Below are positions 8,650 through 34,939 of a stretch of DNA of 34,939 nt, piece by piece (position 1 is the first letter of the stretch; the number at the start of each line of letters is the position of its first letter). The notes beneath the pieces were generated by a model. That model was not told the origin of the DNA, did no database searches, and saw nothing but the letters and a program-made list of their open reading frames with translations. The stretch is from Nitriliruptorales bacterium (GTDB lineage Bacteria; Actinomycetota; Nitriliruptoria; Euzebyales; JAHELV01), in the NCBI GenBank assembly GCA_024644015.1, contig JAHELV010000010.1, positions 59,983 through 94,921 on the forward strand, written 5' to 3'. The position numbers and the translations under genes are program-made.

Positions 8650-9041
8650 GCGACACCAACGGGCTGCTGCCGCAGCACGAGGCTGTCCGCGCCGCCCGCG
8701 AGCGGTTGGGCCGCGACCTTGACGTCCTCAACGTCGAGATGCGCGCGGAGATGGGGCATGCAATGGAGAAGACCGTCTGGAAGCTCGCGGCGACCGGGGC
8801 GGCCGTGCTGGCCAGCATGGCGGTGCGAAGCCTCCTGATGACCGTGTGGCGTCGCGTCGCGAAGAACGAGCCGCCGAACAACCCCGCCGACCCCGACACG
8901 GGGTGGGGCGAGGCCATCGCGTGGACCGCCGCGACCGGGCTCGTGATCGGTGTGGCGCGCATGGTGGCCAGCCGCGGGGCGGCCGCCGGCTGGCGCAGAG
9001 CGACCGGCTCCCTGCCTCCGGGCCTACAGGACGTCGCCTGA
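8646..9041 (+). CDS. DUF3618/DUF4235 membrane protein
   Basis: A 131-residue protein. The N-terminal VRAARERLGRDLDVLNVEMRA stretch resembles DUF3618 (an amphipathic helix), and from about residue 40 the sequence WKLAATGAAVLASMAVRSLL ... GWGEAIAWTAATGLVIGVAR is a good DUF4235 match with two membrane segments. In other Actinobacteria these domains are usually separate neighbouring genes; here they appear joined in one short ORF. GTG 8646 overlaps the upstream stop by 4 nt. The last 18 nt overlap the 3' end of the opposing SWIM gene. A cell-envelope role is likely but unproven. Confidence 0.7.
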   Translation: MSDTNGLLPQHEAVRAARERLGRDLDVLNVEMRAEMGHAMEKTVWKLAATGAAVLASMAVRSLLMTVWRRVAKNEPPNNPADPDTGWGEAIAWTAATGLVIGVARMVASRGAAAGWRRATGSLPPGLQDVA

Positions 9042-9794
9042 GTCGCCGTCGCCGGACTCGAGCAGTGCGGCGGCGTGATCGGCGGCGGCGACCACCGCAG
9101 GGCTGAACATCGCGACCACGGTGGTGGGCCCGGTCCACCCGGCCGGCTCACCCAGCATGCGCAGCGGACCGGCCGGGGTGGGCGGCCGCCGGACCGGGGG
9201 CAACGGCACCTCCGACGGGTGGACGCGGGCCCGTGACCATCCATCGGTGGTGAGCTCGGCCAGGGCAACGCTGCGTTGTTCGTGGGTCGCCCGCCGGTCG
9301 CGGATCTCGGCGAGCAGCTGTTCGCGACTACGCCCTCGCAGTCGGGTCATGAGGTACGGATCCCCGTCGAGCCGCTCCCGCACGTCCATCCAGACGGCGA
9401 CCTGGTGCACGCACGGCGCCGGCTCATCACACGTGCAGCGCAGGTGCCACTGGCCGGCCTGCGGCAGCAGCGACAGGCCGAGCTCGGTCAACGCGCTGTC
9501 GAACTGATCGGGCAGCTGCCCGGCCAGCAGCCGCGCATAGTGGCGCGCCTGCCGGCCGAGCAGGTCACCGACCGACCGCCACTGCGTGTCGCTCCACACC
9601 GGAAGCGTGAGCTCGACCAGGTGCGGGCGGGCGTGCGAGCCCTGAACGCGACCTTCGATCCGGCCTGCGACCACACGGAGCGAAATGACCCGGCCGCCCG
9701 TGCGCAGACGATCCGCTTCGTTCAGCCGCCAGCGACCCTCCGGCGCGGACGCGTCCAGACCGAGGACGGACAGCCACTCGACCGCTGCCCTCAC
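9024..9794 (-). CDS. SWIM zinc-finger protein
   Basis: A 256-residue protein carrying the SWIM motif CxCxnCxH as CTCDEPAPCVH at about residues 118-128, directly preceded by a tryptophan-containing strand (QWHLR). SWIM fingers bind zinc and mediate DNA or protein contacts, and in bacteria they are commonly encoded beside SNF2 ATPases. The N-terminal 100 residues have the basic strand pattern seen in such partners (GRVISLRVVAGRIEGRVQGS). Its start overlaps the SNF2 stop by 4 nt (9791-9794), so the two are almost certainly made together. The C-terminus is acidic and Pro-rich. Function inferred: accessory subunit of the SNF2 translocase. Confidence 0.85.
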   Translation of the reverse strand: MRAAVEWLSVLGLDASAPEGRWRLNEADRLRTGGRVISLRVVAGRIEGRVQGSHARPHLVELTLPVWSDTQWRSVGDLLGRQARHYARLLAGQLPDQFDSALTELGLSLLPQAGQWHLRCTCDEPAPCVHQVAVWMDVRERLDGDPYLMTRLRGRSREQLLAEIRDRRATHEQRSVALAELTTDGWSRARVHPSEVPLPPVRRPPTPAGPLRMLGEPAGWTGPTTVVAMFSPAVVAAADHAAALLESGDGDSGDVL

Positions 9795-12703
9795 GGCCCC
9801 TCCCCTGCCAGCTCGCCGCTGCCGGTCTCGGCCCCCGTCAGCACGAGCCGGCCGGGGGTGCGCGCGCCGTCACCGAGCTCGACGAGCTCGAGCAGCGCGT
9901 CCGGGGGCAGCTCGGTGATCCAGGTCTCGCCCGACCCGACGATCTCCGAGGCCATTTCACGCTTCGCGTCCAGCATCGCGTCGATGCGCTCCTCCAGCGT
10001 GCCGACCGCCATAAGCCGGTGGATCAGAACCCGTTCGGTCTGGCCGATCCGGTGCGCACGATCAGATGCCTGATCCTCGACCGCGGGGTTCCACCATCGG
10101 TCGTAGTGGATGACCTGGGTCGCTGCGGTCAGGTTCATGCCCGTCCCGCCGGCCCGCAGGCTGGCGACCAGTGCGGGCGGCGCCGTCTCCTCCGTCCGAC
10201 CCTGGAACAGGTCGACGACGCCTTGCCGCGCCGTGGCCGACATGCCGCCGTGCAGGATGGGGATCGCGGTCCCCGAGGCCGCAGACAGCTCGTCGACCAG
10301 GATCCGCGCCATGCCCACGAACTGGGTGAAGACGAGCACACGTTCACCTGCCTGCCTGGCCTCGGCGAGCAACTGATGCGTCACCGCGAGCTTGCCGGAC
10401 CGTCCCACGGTGTGGGTCGCGCCGCCCGCGCCGAGCGCCGGATGATCGCAGATCTGCTTGAGCCGGGTCAGCAACGCCAGGACAGCACCGCGATAGCGCA
10501 TACCGCTTTGCTCCTGCGCTGCCTGGCGTCGGAACTGGTCGACCGCAGCTGCGTAGCGTTGGCGCTGCCCCTCGGTCATCGCGCACGGGACCGTACGCTC
10601 GATTCGGGGCGGCAGGTCGGGCGCGACGCGAGGATCCGACTTGGTGCGCCGGAGGACGAACGGCGCGATCAGGCGGCGCAACTGGTTGCGGATCACGTGA
10701 TCGCCCCGCCGCTCGATTGGTATCGAGAACCGCCGTTCGAACCCGTTCCGCGAACCCAGCAGGCCTGGGTTGGTCAGATCGAGCAGGGACCACAGCTCGC
10801 GCAGCCTGTTCTCGACGGGCGTGCCCGTCAAGGCAACACAGTGCGACGAGCGGAGGCGCCGCACCGCCCGGGCGCCCAGCGTGTCCGGGTTCTTGACCTG
10901 CTGCGCCTCGTCGAGCGCGACCACTCGCCACTCGATACCGGACAGCAGCTCGATGTCGCGACGGAGGGTGCCGTACGAAGTGACGACCACACCGCGCTCG
11001 CCGGCGAGGTTCGACGCCCGGTCGGGACCGTGATGGCGGTCGACGGCGAGGCCCGGCGCGAAGCGTGCGAGCTCTCGCTCCCAGTTCGTCACCACCGATG
11101 TGGGGCACACGACCAGGTGCGGACCCGTTCCCTGCACCAGCAGGTGGGCGATCAGCATGACCGTCTTGCCCAGGCCCATGTCATCGGCGAGCACCGCGCC
11201 CAGGCCCAACCGGTACATCATGTCGAGCCATGCCACGGCGTCGCGCTGGTAGCCCCGAAGGTCCCCGTCGAAGCCTTCCGGCACCTCCCGCTCGCGTGCC
11301 GCCGGCTGGTCGCGCAGACGATCCACCAGCGTGGCCAGTGGCCCGACCGTCGAGATCCGTGTGATCTCTGAGACCGTCGCCGTCGCCGAGCTCGCGCCGA
11401 CACCGGCGACCGCCAGACCGATCGCCTCGATCAGCGGCAGCCGTCCAGCGACGGCGCTCCGCTGCTGCCACTGGGTACGCATCTGCGGTGTGACGCGTAC
11501 CCAGCGGTCCTGCCAGAACACCAGCGGATCGTCGGGCTCGAGCAGATGTTCGATCTCGTCGGCGTCGATCACTTCGTCGCCGACGATGCCCTGCCAGCGC
11601 GCCTCCACGAATGCACCGAGTGGCCCACCGTCGGCGTCCGGGGTACCGAGCTGCAGCCGCGGGCGCAGTTGTGCGACGTCATCCGGCAGTGCGATCACAT
11701 AGCCCGCGTCGCTGAGCAGCGGTGCGGTCTGATCGATGAAGCGCCACGCGTCCGCGATGTCGACCTGCACCGACGTCGGCTGGGGCTCGTCCAAGGCCCG
11801 TTCGACCGGGCGGCAGACGCGTGCTGCCCGCGCCAGCGCCTCGAGCAGTGCCTCGACGCGGTCGGAGTGCTCGGCGCCGTGGCGCCAGACGTCGTCGGCC
11901 GGCACGCGGACCCCGTCGCGGTCGTTCAGCCCGAAGCGCAGCGTCCACGGCCCGGACGGACCGTCCGGCGGCTCGAGTACGAACTCGACGGTGTGTCCGC
12001 TACCGGCCCGCTCGTACGGCCGCAGCCACTCCCGTACATGGGCGAGGGTCTCGCCTCGCTCCGCGCCGAGCGGCACCGCCGGATCGTGAGGATCGGTGCT
12101 TGCCTCCTGCCAACGGGCCGTCCACGGCAGCAGGCGTTCGCGAGGCCGGCCGGTCCCGGTCCAGCCCGCCTGGTGCCTGACGAGGGCGTCTGCGATTCCG
12201 TCGACGAACGCCCGAAGCAATGCGAACGGGTGCCACACGCCGGCGGTCCCGCGCGGAAGCGCATGTGCGGCGACGGGCAACGCATCGGCCAACGCTGCCA
12301 ACGCGTCGGCGGCCATCCCGCCGACGGGCAGCAGCACCTGCCAGGTGGCCACGACCTGATCGTCGACGGAGCGCAGCAGCGGCGCGATCTGATGCTCGGC
12401 CACGAGGCCCACCGCGAGCCGTGCCGCACGCGCGTACCCCGTCACCGACGCGGACGTCCACGGCTCGGTCCGGCCCGGCTGCAGCAGCGCGGGCAACGCC
12501 TCGGTCAGCCGCACGGCAGCGACCGGATGGTTGCGGTACTGCGGGCCGTCCGCGGTTGGCACGACCAGCATGGCGCGATCGGCGTTCGCGGTGACACCGA
12601 GTGCCGCAACGGCGGTCGTCGGCGCGCGATCGCCGCGGAGTCGGTAGAACAGCAGCCGCCCGTCGGCCGGCAGCGCAGGGTTCGGCGAGAACACGAGATG
12701 CAA
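9791..12703 (-). CDS. SNF2-family ATPase/DNA translocase
   Basis: A 970-residue SF2 ATPase. Residues about 315-425 resemble the bacterial SNF2 helicase-associated domain (DUF3670): WRFIDQTAPLLSDAGYVIALP ... WQDRWVRVTPQM. The core has Walker A DDMGLGKT (about 508-515), DEAQ box (LDEAQQVKN, about 598), TGTPVENRL, and a RecA2 lobe with LHGGMSATARQGVVDLFQ (about 818) and the motif VI segment DRAHRIGQTE (about 886). Family knowledge: such proteins remodel protein-DNA or polymerase-DNA complexes and act in repair, transcription recycling or defence. TTG 12703 is the likely start, with GAAAGG 11 nt upstream; no ATG lies nearby. It is coupled to the SWIM gene and preceded 38 nt upstream by an unknown gene. 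Confidence 0.92.
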   Translation of the reverse strand: MHLVFSPNPALPADGRLLFYRLRGDRAPTTAVAALGVTANADRAMLVVPTADGPQYRNHPVAAVRLTEALPALLQPGRTEPWTSASVTGYARAARLAVGLVAEHQIAPLLRSVDDQVVATWQVLLPVGGMAADALAALADALPVAAHALPRGTAGVWHPFALLRAFVDGIADALVRHQAGWTGTGRPRERLLPWTARWQEASTDPHDPAVPLGAERGETLAHVREWLRPYERAGSGHTVEFVLEPPDGPSGPWTLRFGLNDRDGVRVPADDVWRHGAEHSDRVEALLEALARAARVCRPVERALDEPQPTSVQVDIADAWRFIDQTAPLLSDAGYVIALPDDVAQLRPRLQLGTPDADGGPLGAFVEARWQGIVGDEVIDADEIEHLLEPDDPLVFWQDRWVRVTPQMRTQWQQRSAVAGRLPLIEAIGLAVAGVGASSATATVSEITRISTVGPLATLVDRLRDQPAAREREVPEGFDGDLRGYQRDAVAWLDMMYRLGLGAVLADDMGLGKTVMLIAHLLVQGTGPHLVVCPTSVVTNWERELARFAPGLAVDRHHGPDRASNLAGERGVVVTSYGTLRRDIELLSGIEWRVVALDEAQQVKNPDTLGARAVRRLRSSHCVALTGTPVENRLRELWSLLDLTNPGLLGSRNGFERRFSIPIERRGDHVIRNQLRRLIAPFVLRRTKSDPRVAPDLPPRIERTVPCAMTEGQRQRYAAAVDQFRRQAAQEQSGMRYRGAVLALLTRLKQICDHPALGAGGATHTVGRSGKLAVTHQLLAEARQAGERVLVFTQFVGMARILVDELSAASGTAIPILHGGMSATARQGVVDLFQGRTEETAPPALVASLRAGGTGMNLTAATQVIHYDRWWNPAVEDQASDRAHRIGQTERVLIHRLMAVGTLEERIDAMLDAKREMASEIVGSGETWITELPPDALLELVELGDGARTPGRLVLTGAETGSGELAGEGP

Positions 12704-12741: not shown

Positions 12742-13275
12742 CTAGCGGCGGTCGCCGTCGCGCTGCGATTCGTGTTCAAGATGGGCGATCAGCTGACGGA
12801 TCGCCGACGCGGGAACCTGATCGCCGCTCCGTTGTGCGAGGAGGTCGACGAGTGCCGCGATGACCGCCTGGCGCTCCGACCGCGCGGGCGCGGTGTCGCT
12901 GAACAGTGCGGGCTGGTCGACCTGTACCTGTCGTTCGACGAAGTCGTCCGGCGGCCGCCCGGCCAGCGCCGATGCCCACCACACCAGTCCGCGGTCCCAT
13001 GAGACACCAGCCGGCCGCGCGGCGGGAACCCGACCCCGGAACGCGACCTCGGCGATCACCGAGTGGACCGCGTCGCGCACCAGCGGATCCTCGGCGAAGC
13101 TGCGCCGCACCGCCTCCACGAAACCGGGTCGTGGGGGCTGCCCAGTCAGCACGTCGGCCAGGCGTTCGACGATCGGCCGTGAGCGCTGCAGCCAGTCCCA
13201 GGCGTACCGTGGCACCGCGCGCACGGCTGCAGGGTCGGGCGCGGGCTCAGCTGCCACGGGCACTCCATCTAGCAT
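12742..13275 (-). CDS. uncharacterised protein upstream of SNF2
   Basis: I do not recognise this 177-residue protein. It is soluble by composition, mostly helical, with Trp-rich patches (YAWDWLQRSRPIVERLADVL near the N-terminus and WDRGLVWWASALAGRPPDDF in the middle) and a basic C-terminal helix (RQLIAHLEHESQRDGDRR). Codon use matches true genes here. ATG 13275 has GAGG 10 nt upstream; the frame is also open to TTG 13323, which overlaps the stop of the kinase-domain gene by 4 nt and could be the real, coupled start. Its position between a kinase domain and SNF2-SWIM suggests a shared transcript. Confidence 0.6.
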   Translation of the reverse strand: MLDGVPVAAEPAPDPAAVRAVPRYAWDWLQRSRPIVERLADVLTGQPPRPGFVEAVRRSFAEDPLVRDAVHSVIAEVAFRGRVPAARPAGVSWDRGLVWWASALAGRPPDDFVERQVQVDQPALFSDTAPARSERQAVIAALVDLLAQRSGDQVPASAIRQLIAHLEHESQRDGDRR

Positions 13276-13319
13276 CGGGAACCAGCCTCGGCCCAGCGTG
13301 ATGGCGGCGCGACGCGAAA

Positions 13320-13571
13320 TCAAGCATTCGTGGTGTCGCTGAGCGCGTCGATGAGCCCGCGGCAGTCAGCGACGGTCGCATCGGCGATCGCGCGCAGGGC
13401 GCGCAGGGCTGCGCCGACACCGGTCGCGTCGCCGTCCGCGTGATGCAGCAACGCCGTGTCGACGGCCAGTGACAGCGCCGTCACCTGTTGCACGACGCCG
13501 GCATGCAGCTCCTCGGCGAGGCGCCGCCGCTCGCGAACGATCTCCGTGTCCACCGCGTCTCCGTGACCCAT
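13320..13571 (-). CDS. stand-alone HisKA_3 dimerisation domain
   Basis: An 83-residue ORF whose sequence RERRRLAEELHAGVVQQVTALSL aligns by eye with the dimerisation and phosphoacceptor helix of NarL-type (HisKA_3) histidine kinases, followed by a second helix (ALRALRAIADATVADCRGLIDAL). The phosphoacceptor-like His is present, but the acidic residue that normally follows (LHD/LHE) is Ala (LHAG). No sensor precedes it and no ATPase domain follows: the stop is immediately followed by the next gene. ATG 13571 is used; GTG 13553 with GGAG 5 nt upstream is a good alternative. It may be a kinase remnant, or a small four-helix-bundle regulator that lost catalysis. Confidence 0.6.
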   Translation of the reverse strand: MGHGDAVDTEIVRERRRLAEELHAGVVQQVTALSLAVDTALLHHADGDATGVGAALRALRAIADATVADCRGLIDALSDTTNA

Positions 13572-13635
13572 CGACGACGAGCCCACTCAGCCCTCAGGGC
13601 GCTCGGTGCCCTGTGGGGAGCCAGCCACTCACATT

Positions 13636-13674
13636 GGCCAACACGCTCCCCGCGTCGGCCAGTACGCTCCCCGC
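13636..13674. repeat. two tandem 18-nt direct repeats
   Basis: GGCCAACACGCTCCCCGC (13636-13653) and GGCCAGTACGCTCCCCGC (13657-13674) differ at two positions and are spaced with a 21-nt period. They lie directly after the stop of the glycosylase gene in the 104-nt gap before the kinase-domain gene, so they could be a paired binding site or a small duplication. Confidence 0.7.
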
Positions 13675-13675
13675 C

Positions 13676-14884
13676 TCAGCGACGTCGCTCCCGACTTGTC
13701 GCTGGCAGCAGGGTACGACGCAGGGCGTCACCGAGCGCGCAGTCGGCGCTGACCGCCACGCCGTCGAGTCCGAGCCACGCCGCCAGCGTGCACAGCTCGG
13801 TCGCGAGTGGCCCCGCGACCTGGCCGGCGATGGCCGATGCCTCCAGGAACACACCAGGCACACGCAGCAACCCCGCCCGCCGATCGGCTTTGACGTCGAC
13901 GCGCGCCACCAACTCGTCGCCGAGCAGGAACGGCATCACGAAGTAGCCGTACCGCCGCTGGCCGGCTGGGACGTAGAACTCCAGCCGGTAGCGGAAACCG
14001 AAGACGCGCTCGGTCCGCGCACGATCCCACACGAGCGGGTCGAACGGGGTCAGCAGCGCCGCGGCAGCCACACGGCGTGGGGTCCGCGCCCCAGGTGCGC
14101 GGTACGCGGATCGATCCCAGCCGTGCACCTCGACCGGGGCAAGCAGACCTTCGTCAGCCAGTCGCGCCACGATCGGCCGTGCGGTCGGACCGTGCAGCCG
14201 GTGGTAGTCGATGAGGTCGCCGGCGGTCGCGACACCGAGCGCGTCGGCGGCAACCAGGAGCAACTCCCGGTACGCGGCTTCGCGGTCTGGGGTCGGACGG
14301 TTGAGCACCGCGGCCGGGATGACCCGCTCGGTGAGGTCATAGCGCCGCGTCTGTCCGCGACGGTCAGCGATGGCAACCTCCCCCCAGGCGAACAGCGCCT
14401 CGAGCGCCGCCTTGCCCGGTGACCATCCCCACCACGGTCCGCTCCGCTCACCTGGGTCTGTGAGATCGCGAACGGCCAGCGGGCCACGCGCGGCGACCTC
14501 GTCGCGGACGGACGCGATGTATCCGGGTCGCTCGGCCTCCAGACGCGCCGCGCGGCGCCCCGACCAGTGCGCGCGGCGGTGCGAGAGCGCCGGCCAGCGG
14601 TCTATCGCGACCAGGCTCGCTTCGTGCGCCCACGCCTCGAACAGCTCGCGTCGCCGGTAGGCGGCGTCGTCGAGCATGGCCGTCGGGTACGGGCCCAGAC
14701 GCGAGAACAGCGGCAGATACTGCGCGCGTTCGACGGTCTGCACGGCGTCGATCTGCACGAGGTCCAGGCGACGCACGACACCGCGGACATGTCGGACGTC
14801 GACCCGCCCACCGGGCCGTGGACGGTCGAACCCCTGTGCCGCCAACGCGATGCGGCGGACCTGGTCGGGCCGCAGCGACGCCAC
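13676..14884 (-). CDS. AlkZ/YcaQ-like DNA glycosylase (HTH_42 family)
   Basis: A 402-residue winged-helix protein of the COG3214/HTH_42 family, whose characterised members (AlkZ, YcaQ) unhook bulky alkylated bases and interstrand crosslinks. The catalytic Q-hydrophobic-D motif is visible as LVQIDAVQTVERAQYLPLFS, with Q44 and D46; QxD is typical of the YcaQ/AlkZ2 branch rather than QxQ of AlkZ. FEAWAHEASLV and the C-terminal VDVKADRRAGLLRV, a strand pattern common in the family, are also present. The GTG start at 14884 lies 16 nt after leuD in the same direction, so it may be transcribed with the leu genes. Glycosylase activity is inferred from the motif. Confidence 0.82.
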   Translation of the reverse strand: MASLRPDQVRRIALAAQGFDRPRPGGRVDVRHVRGVVRRLDLVQIDAVQTVERAQYLPLFSRLGPYPTAMLDDAAYRRRELFEAWAHEASLVAIDRWPALSHRRAHWSGRRAARLEAERPGYIASVRDEVAARGPLAVRDLTDPGERSGPWWGWSPGKAALEALFAWGEVAIADRRGQTRRYDLTERVIPAAVLNRPTPDREAAYRELLLVAADALGVATAGDLIDYHRLHGPTARPIVARLADEGLLAPVEVHGWDRSAYRAPGARTPRRVAAAALLTPFDPLVWDRARTERVFGFRYRLEFYVPAGQRRYGYFVMPFLLGDELVARVDVKADRRAGLLRVPGVFLEASAIAGQVAGPLATELCTLAAWLGLDGVAVSADCALGDALRRTLLPATSRERRR

Positions 14885-34025: not shown

Positions 34026-34706
34026 CTATCGCACCAGCCCGTGCCGCATGGCCGTCACGACCGCCTGCACCCGATCGTCCGCCTTCAGTTTCGCGTAGAT
34101 CCTCGACAGATGGCTCTTGACGGTCTCCTCGCTGATGCACAGCACGTCGGCGATGTCGCGGGTGGTGCCTCCGGTCGCCATGACCTCGAGCACCTCCTGC
34201 TCGCGATGCGTGAGCGGTTCGATCCCGGCGTGGATCGCCAGTGGCCCGACCCGTTCGAGAAACGGCCGGGTGACGTCCGGGTGTAGGAAGCCCTTGCCGG
34301 CCGCGACCGCCCGCACCGCCTGGATCAGCTCCTTGCGTCTGACGTTCTTCGGCAGGTATCCGGCGACGCCGGCTGCGACCGCGCGCGTCACGGTGTCGTG
34401 GTCGATGAACATGGTCAACGCCATCATCCTGGTCGGCACGTCGTGCTTGAGGATCTGACGTACCGCCGTCAGTCCGTCCATGCCGATCAGGTTGACGTCG
34501 ACGAGCGCGAGATCGGGACGTTCGGTCAGCACGAACTCGACGAGCTGCTCACCGGACGTCACGATCGACTGCACCTGCATGTCGTCCTCGAACGACAGCA
34601 TCGTCGCGAGGCCGTCCGCGACGACCCCGTGGTCCTCCGCGATGACGATGCGGATGACCGCACTGCCGGTCGGCTGCGTGTCGATGACAGGCGTCGCGAA
34701 GGTCAC
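34026..34706 (-). CDS. NarL/FixJ-family response regulator
   Basis: A 226-residue two-component regulator. The receiver domain shows IRIVIAEDHGVVADGLATML, phosphoacceptor D70 in LALVDVNLIGMDG, and K in GYLPKNVRRKELIQAV; the LuxR-type HTH is LTHREQEVLEVMATGG followed by TRDIADVLCISEETVKSHLS. GTG 34706 gives a 4-nt GTGA overlap with the kinase stop; GTG 34709 is one codon longer. About 18 poorly conserved residues precede the receiver. Partner kinase is the upstream gene. Target genes cannot be inferred. Confidence 0.9.
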   Translation of the reverse strand: MTFATPVIDTQPTGSAVIRIVIAEDHGVVADGLATMLSFEDDMQVQSIVTSGEQLVEFVLTERPDLALVDVNLIGMDGLTAVRQILKHDVPTRMMALTMFIDHDTVTRAVAAGVAGYLPKNVRRKELIQAVRAVAAGKGFLHPDVTRPFLERVGPLAIHAGIEPLTHREQEVLEVMATGGTTRDIADVLCISEETVKSHLSRIYAKLKADDRVQAVVTAMRHGLVR

Positions 34707-34939
34707 CACGTCGGCACCTCGAGTCGCACGGTGGTTCCGACGCCGGACGTGCCGGTGATCTCGAAGGCGCCGCGCGCGAGTTCAGCGCGCTGCTGCATCA
34801 GCGCAACCCCATGGCTGCGCTCGCCGATCGCCGTCGGGTCGAACCCTCGACCGTCGTCCTGCATCAGGACGACAAGCCTACCCTCGTCGAGCCGGAACTC
34901 GACCTGCACAGATGACGCGTGCGCGTGCTTCTCGACGTT
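34703..34939 (-). CDS. histidine kinase, C-terminal part (cut by window)
   Basis: Only the last 78 codons are inside the window. They form the end of a GHKL ATPase domain: NVEKHAHASSVQVEF (N box) at the window edge, LMQDDGRGFDP (G1) and SHGVALMQQRAELARGAFEI ending GVGTTVRLEVP (G2). The N box of the KHA type is characteristic of HisKA_3 (NarX/DesK-like) kinases, matching the NarL-type regulator that overlaps its stop. The sensor and phosphoacceptor regions lie beyond position 34939. Confidence 0.88.
   Translation of the reverse strand, partial: NVEKHAHASSVQVEFRLDEGRLVVLMQDDGRGFDPTAIGERSHGVALMQQRAELARGAFEITGTSGVGTTVRLEVPTW

Follow-up and report, generated by a model that had tools for sequence, protein, structure and literature searches.

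What does a histidine-kinase dimerization hairpin do when it is encoded on its own, with neither a sensor nor an ATPase domain, and with no acidic residue after its phosphoacceptor histidine? The question is raised by a small ORF in the 34,939-nucleotide stretch of a Nitriliruptorales contig analyzed here, the whole of which we call the window. The ORF at 13320–13586 is a real coding gene. We regard it as a small, lineage-specific variant of a known domain, with a function that is putative.

A HisKA_3 Hairpin Encoded Alone

The coordinates of the gene and of the features around it are given in Table 1. An in-frame ATG at 13571 offers a shorter form of the same ORF (13320–13571, 83 aa). An initial annotation, made from the letters alone, had described a HisKA_3-like helix pair without sensor or ATPase domains, and profile searches bear this out. 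PF07730 (HisKA_3) matches residues 19–84 of the 88-aa protein over profile positions 1–65 of 68 at 33.4 bits (E 6.7e-08), above its cut-off of 24. No other Pfam family matches the 88-aa protein up to E 1; the same scan finds no sensor or ATPase domain in the ORF and no ATPase family in the next gene, that of the 193-aa protein. NCBIfam reports two kinase families only, both far below their cut-offs.

Table 1. Features of the hairpin locus and of the corresponding locus in G027
Feature	Position	Strand	Remarks
Stand-alone HisKA_3 (DHp) hairpin gene	13320..13586	minus	88 aa from GTG 13586
AlkZ-like (YcaQ-type) DNA glycosylase	13676..14884	minus	Pfam AlkZ-like 227 bits; directly upstream of hairpin gene
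193-aa uncharacterized conserved gene	12742..13323	minus	Listed start TTG; precedes SNF2
Promoter-like element TTGATT-N17-CACGCT	13295..13323	minus	Aligned in four congeners
SNF2-family helicase	9791..12703	minus	Pfam SNF2-rel_dom 217 bits, Helicase_C, DUF3670; NCBIfam SCO1167-like below cut-off
G027 ATPase-less HisKA_3-like protein	L032:806-1453		215 aa from ATG, other starts possible (about 200–215 aa)

An AF2 model built on two sequences is a hairpin of two helices (residues 8–48 and 54–87; pLDDT 76.9, pTM 0.48). The DHp domain of DesK is its top Foldseek match in the PDB (ranks 1, 3, 6, 9, and 34), but its E value is 1.0, and not one of the 52 matches reaches E ≤0.001. A phmmer search of PDB sequences up to E 1 gives two matches, neither of them meaningful: a designed protein at E 0.032 and, weakly, a kinase at E 0.81. 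Spo0B and ChpT are not among them.

The Altered H-box

The H-box of the window protein is RRRLAEELHAGVVQQ (LHAGVVQQ), with the phosphoacceptor His at residue 28 of the 88-aa form and Ala directly after it, as the initial annotation had seen. Three orthologues, described below, have Ala, Ala, and Gly at this H+1 position (G000, the window genome, then G001 and G002), and all three share the His, Gln H+5, Thr H+8, and Leu H+12. By comparison, Asp or Glu follows the His at all 52 compared loci with longer HisKA_3 frames. These comprise 17 of the 25 non-orthologous matches from a search of 101 relatives, all 23 HisKA_3 loci of another search, and 12 of 35 from a search of the phylum; two of them (L008 and L095) are the same place fetched twice, and the 52 loci hold 49 distinct sequences, 48 with H-D and one with H-E, read by alignment or by direct translation of the match. 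Two automatic readings of H-I and H-P were chance alignments off the match, both loci having H-D at the match itself, and for another four loci, which gave no alignment, the residue was taken from a translation of the match. Because every longer frame compared has H-D or H-E, the loss of the acid is, as far as these sequences go, specific to this gene, and three species keep it.

We take Gln H+5, Thr H+8, and Leu H+12 to correspond to DesK Gln193, Ser196, and Leu200. According to passages of PMC5231405, those three DesK residues touch the response regulator DesR. Passages of PMC3510030 state that the acid at H+1 is required for kinase activity in HisKA kinases, and that the DxxxQ motif is required for phosphatase activity in the HisKA_3 kinase NarX, the latter citing Huynh et al. 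2010. Judged by its residues, the window protein keeps the Gln of the HisKA_3 DxxxQ phosphatase motif but not the acid. Self-phosphorylation is ruled out, because the ATPase domain is missing.

The dimerization hairpin itself is intact, and the window genome has seven further HisKA_3 matches in longer frames, so the protein might pair with complete HisKA_3 kinases and inhibit or adjust their activity, as the dominant modulator that the initial annotation suggested. Its closest counterpart elsewhere in that genome, however, is only 33% identical over 67 aa (21.5 bits), and such distant relatives would not be expected to pair through their DHp hairpins. The specific partner proposed in the initial annotation, a NarX-like kinase at the window end, finds no support: its likely counterparts in G002 and G003, which lie at a similar distance, have a different H-box (ERSRIAM.VHDDVLPLFAAAQMQIDN; VHDDVLPLF) and failed to align with the hairpin, and G003 keeps the kinase without the hairpin gene. 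With no close match in its own genome, and with the nearby NarX-like kinase both strongly different and present where the hairpin gene is missing, mixed dimers seem unlikely.

At the window end itself (34026–34939, minus strand) lie a receiver-LuxR regulator (34026–34709) and the end of a kinase ATPase domain, the contig end cutting the kinase.

Distribution

With the hairpin protein as query, matches were found in 24 of 101 relatives at E 0.001; a three-row profile matched in 37 of 396 genomes of the phylum at E 1e-5 and in 19 of 66 genomes of the class at E 1e-4. In each search, among the matches listed, only the G000, G001, and G002 copies score above 75 bits, in frames of 72–103 aa. The other matches listed stay under 40 bits, and the frames that hold them are no shorter than 201 aa (101 relatives), 302 aa (phylum), and 201 aa (class). 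Because no more than 13 candidates per genome were scored in the phylum search, weak relatives may be missed, as the longer G027 protein described below was. A GTDB contig scan with exact short peptide patterns, which detects close relatives only, found a single locus (L080), in a metagenome-assembled Actinomycetota genome that is apparently the record behind G001. Within the searches made, the stand-alone form has been seen only in one uncultured genus. No match to the protein was found among 72,556 plasmid records at E 0.01 and no confirmed match among viral contigs, and a mobile or plasmid origin has no support from either. The open-access titles and abstracts searched contain no description of a stand-alone HisKA_3 hairpin protein, which is weak evidence of absence.

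The Locus in the Genus and the Order

On the strand of the hairpin gene, the order of genes is leuC, leuD, the AlkZ-like gene, the hairpin gene, the 193-aa gene, SNF2, and a 256-aa gene (9024–9794); leuC and the name leuD are our own reading, Pfam showing only Aconitase_C for the latter. The initial annotation had placed the gene upstream of SNF2. The helicase does lie downstream on the same strand, but not directly, since the 193-aa gene comes between. A repeat of about 21 bases (GCGGGGAGCGT..TGGCC) is visible by eye at ~13630–13700, between the AlkZ-like and hairpin genes, in two clear copies and one degenerate copy; it is not apparent in the G001 stretch compared.

The genus is represented by four genomes (G000 to G003), and the AlkZ-like gene neighbors the locus in all of them. 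The G001 copy is intact and has LHAG; it encodes 91 aa from a TTG in an open frame of 103, is 63% identical over 75 aa, and scores 30.5 bits against HisKA_3. The G002 copy has LHGG and is 76% identical over 54 aa, and it is broken by two frameshifts, the first immediately ahead of the H-box and the second close to where helix 2 ends; its 54-aa open piece scores 17.7 bits, below the HisKA_3 cut-off. Since the six G002 neighbors (leuC, leuD, AlkZ-like, 193-aa, SNF2, and 256-aa) show no stops within their aligned matches, true decay of this copy is likelier than a general assembly error, and G002 probably broke the gene recently. In G003 the hairpin gene is absent, ~220 bases separating the glycosylase and 193-aa matches. 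Absent from one genome and frameshifted in another, the gene must be dispensable.

With the hairpin protein as query, nothing was found at E 1e-3 near the 193-aa gene of 20 other genomes of the order (flanks 1.5 kb, one shorter). The same loci were checked with a HisKA_3 profile of 37 rows, from which rows below 26 bits, shorter than 50 aa, or containing stops had been excluded. This profile recovers all seven controls kept outside it (five kinase loci and the G001 and G002 copies), finds nothing at the G003 locus, and gives one weak match among the 20 genomes, in G027 (21.2 bits, E 3e-5). The same stand-alone gene before SNF2, which the initial annotation had suggested looking for elsewhere, is thus present in G001 and, broken, in G002, and was found neither in G003 nor in the 20 other genomes.

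The initial annotation had also reasoned that a full-length kinase at this place in relatives would mark the gene as a recent truncation. No ATPase-bearing kinase was found at the locus in three congeners and the 20 other genomes; one of the 20, G027, has a longer protein there, likewise without an ATPase domain. With the stand-alone form present in three congeners and no ATPase-bearing kinase at the locus, we reject the idea that a full kinase recently lost its ATPase domain here. It is possible, since the G027 protein at the same place is longer and also lacks the ATPase domain, that an N-terminal part was lost in the genus.

The G027 gene sits after an apparent ABC permease and directly before the 193-aa gene. 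Its protein ends in a C-terminal hairpin with the H-box RLHDGPVQ, has no ATPase domain, and scores 18.9 bits against HisKA_3 (E 0.0023, below cut-off). It resembles the window protein in position, in the missing ATPase domain, in the C-terminal hairpin, and in a stop codon that lies inside the promoter-like TTGA described below; it differs in its extra N-terminal part, in keeping H-D, in its subthreshold HisKA_3 score, and in showing no special sequence closeness. Scored against a profile of the genus copies, it comes 36th among 38 DHp sequences (10.3 bits). As a clear orthologue by sequence it is unsupported, linked to the window gene only by its position and by the stop shared with the promoter-like element. 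Among 66 genomes of the class it has no full-length relative, and one weak match to its hairpin part, in G026; its N-terminal part belongs to no assigned family and has no relative in the same 66 genomes.

In two other genomes of the order, G029 and G025 (L118 1348–3286 and L119 756–3201), an ABC ATPase and an ABC-2 permease lie between the AlkZ-like and 193-aa genes, so that different lineages hold different genes at this spot. No kinase lies between the glycosylase and the 193-aa gene in either, and there too the glycosylase follows leuD.

Selection on the Hairpin Gene

Nei-Gojobori dN/dS values for the hairpin gene are 0.37 between G000 and G001 (75 codons), 0.13 between G000 and G002 (54 codons), and 0.35 between G001 and G002 (54 codons), as against 0.16 for the AlkZ-like glycosylase between G000 and G001. 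Synonymous change exceeds nonsynonymous change in all three pairs (Fisher p 5e-4, 2e-8, and 2e-3, respectively), and third-position changes exceed those at first and second positions, by a weaker test (p 0.021, 1e-4, and 0.052). These patterns indicate that the protein was under purifying selection over much of the divergence, less strictly than its glycosylase neighbor. In a GC-rich region dense with overlapping ORFs, an ORF this short could in principle be a chance or mis-called frame; with a Pfam match that spans nearly the full domain, orthologues at the same place, and the codon-position pattern and dN/dS just given, we consider that extremely improbable here.

Another explanation is that the gene is a captured or left-over kinase-like fragment with a marginal role, decaying across the genus and without a present phosphorelay function. 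Two of four congeners are intact, the third is frameshifted twice amid six stop-free neighbors, and the fourth is without the gene; constraint is weaker than on the AlkZ-like neighbor, and the longer G027 protein could be the kind of gene that was cut down. Such decay sits less easily with dN/dS of 0.13–0.37 and its clear synonymous excess, with a comparable H-box change retained by three species, and with a next gene that holds no ATPase-domain remnant recognizable by Pfam. We rate it a real possibility, short of even odds, and decay of a dispensable fragment is nearly as likely as the phosphotransfer reading that we prefer below.

A Stop Codon Inside a Promoter-like Element

The hairpin gene ends where the next transcription unit appears to begin. 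The −35-like hexamer of the promoter-like element in Table 1 contains its stop TGA (13320–13322). The core TTGATTTC-N15-CACGCT is conserved in all four congeners, including G003, which is without the hairpin gene, and TTGATTTC-N13..16-CACG occurs once in the genome. In 16 of 24 genomes of the order (the four congeners and 20 others; six of 30 are without a 193-aa match), TTGA-N18..20-NANNNT lies upstream of the 193-aa gene, and it is absent in eight; the spacer is 17 bases in all 16. As controls, stretches drawn at random from these loci contain the pattern at a rate of 1.9%, and shuffled sequence at 1.1%. The binomial p for 16/24, 1.4e-22, is overstated, the pattern having been chosen after seeing the congeners and the genomes being related. 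A sigma-70 consensus scan found nothing at the element.

The 193-aa protein belongs to no Pfam or NCBIfam family and is matched in 48 of 61 genomes, most matches beginning at residue 14 or later. Its true start is probably the ATG at 13275, below the element, the listed TTG being probably too early on this alignment of matches. The 193-aa/SNF2 cluster is probably driven by its own promoter-like element, inside which the hairpin gene ends, and the hairpin gene probably lies outside the SNF2 operon; read-through transcription of the cluster from upstream is possible. Membership of the hairpin gene in an SNF2 operon through an overlapping TTGA stop/start was judged unlikely, the element being present also in G003 without the gene and in 16 of 24 genomes. 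For the annotation of the SNF2 cluster, it is useful that a stop codon falls within a promoter-like element that the order conserves.

The neighborhood suggests a further role, as a structural helix bundle or adaptor that works with the AlkZ-like glycosylase or the SNF2 cluster and transfers no phosphate. The gene stands directly behind the AlkZ-like gene in all three of its occurrences and directly before the 193-aa/SNF2 cluster, where G027 has another hairpin-ending protein. Yet G003 and 15 more genomes of the order have the AlkZ-like gene without the hairpin gene (some loci near contig ends), and the 193-aa/SNF2 pair, besides having its own promoter-like element in 16 of 24 genomes, is without a detectable hairpin gene in 20 of the 24. 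An adaptor role is therefore quite unlikely.

A Proposed Function

A histidine and a regulator-contacting face that are kept while autokinase activity and the phosphatase acid are lost would fit a phosphate carrier, and for this reason we propose, at a probability of roughly 0.4, that the gene encodes a regulator-facing hairpin module: a dimeric, HPt-like phosphate shuttle or sink, accessory in nature and droppable by single lineages. The protein would probably be made from the last gene of a transcript behind the AlkZ-like gene. Two hairpins would most likely pair into a four-helix bundle with one His exposed on each side. This bundle would be unable to phosphorylate itself, having no ATPase domain, and would be without the DxxxQ phosphatase acid. 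The His and the helix-1 face formed by Gln H+5, Thr H+8, and Leu H+12, the face that contacts the response regulator in DesK, are kept, and phosphate might be passed on or absorbed through the His in the manner of Spo0B or ChpT, on a HisKA_3-derived scaffold. These two proteins illustrate that a hairpin dimer can serve as an HPt: passages of PMC3433190 describe Spo0B as building its bundle from a pair of hairpins, and ChpT as an HPt that dimerizes and has no autokinase activity.

The second ATPase-less, hairpin-ending protein at the same place in G027 counts for a phosphate shuttle or sink. Against it, the adjoining genes are a DNA glycosylase, the 193-aa gene, and SNF2, and the sole regulator identified in the window (34026–34709) is 20 kb off. 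The gene is dispensable, as its loss in G003 and its two frameshifts in G002 show; the kept residues are general HisKA_3 residues that would also serve folding; the constraint is weaker than on the glycosylase; and the G027 protein keeps H-D and shows no special closeness.

A bolder form of the proposal is that the genus has evolved a bare-DHp dimeric phosphotransferase from HisKA_3, in which loss of the H+1 acid turned a kinase/phosphatase module into a shuttle or sink, an independent Spo0B-like origin within the Actinomycetota. We put this forward as a doubtful extension; if it were true, the G027 protein would belong to the same class, as an earlier or a parallel case. A functional hairpin would be among the smallest kinase-derived signaling parts, and would allow the role of H+1 to be addressed directly without an ATPase domain. 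A decaying one would show, across several species of one genus, a kinase fragment that selection maintained for a time before it disappeared.

Comparison with Known Phosphotransfer Modules

In monomeric HPt domains, the His sits in a helical bundle and needs no acidic neighbor. These domains are four-helix bundles of a single chain, whereas the window hairpin would have to dimerize. With the HisKA_3 DHp domains of NarX and DesK, the window protein shares the predicted hairpin, the His, and Gln H+5, and DesK is its top, though not significant, structural match; it differs from both in the missing sensor and ATPase domains and in the Ala or Gly that replaces the acid after the His. The way of working proposed here is that of Spo0B, ChpT, and PhyT, kinase-like DHp dimers used as phosphotransferases. 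None of the three is known to be a HisKA_3 protein, and Spo0B presumably also keeps an altered ATPase-like part. Such a part is retained in ChpT and PhyT according to passages of PMC3433190 and PMC5898713, whereas the window protein is a bare hairpin.
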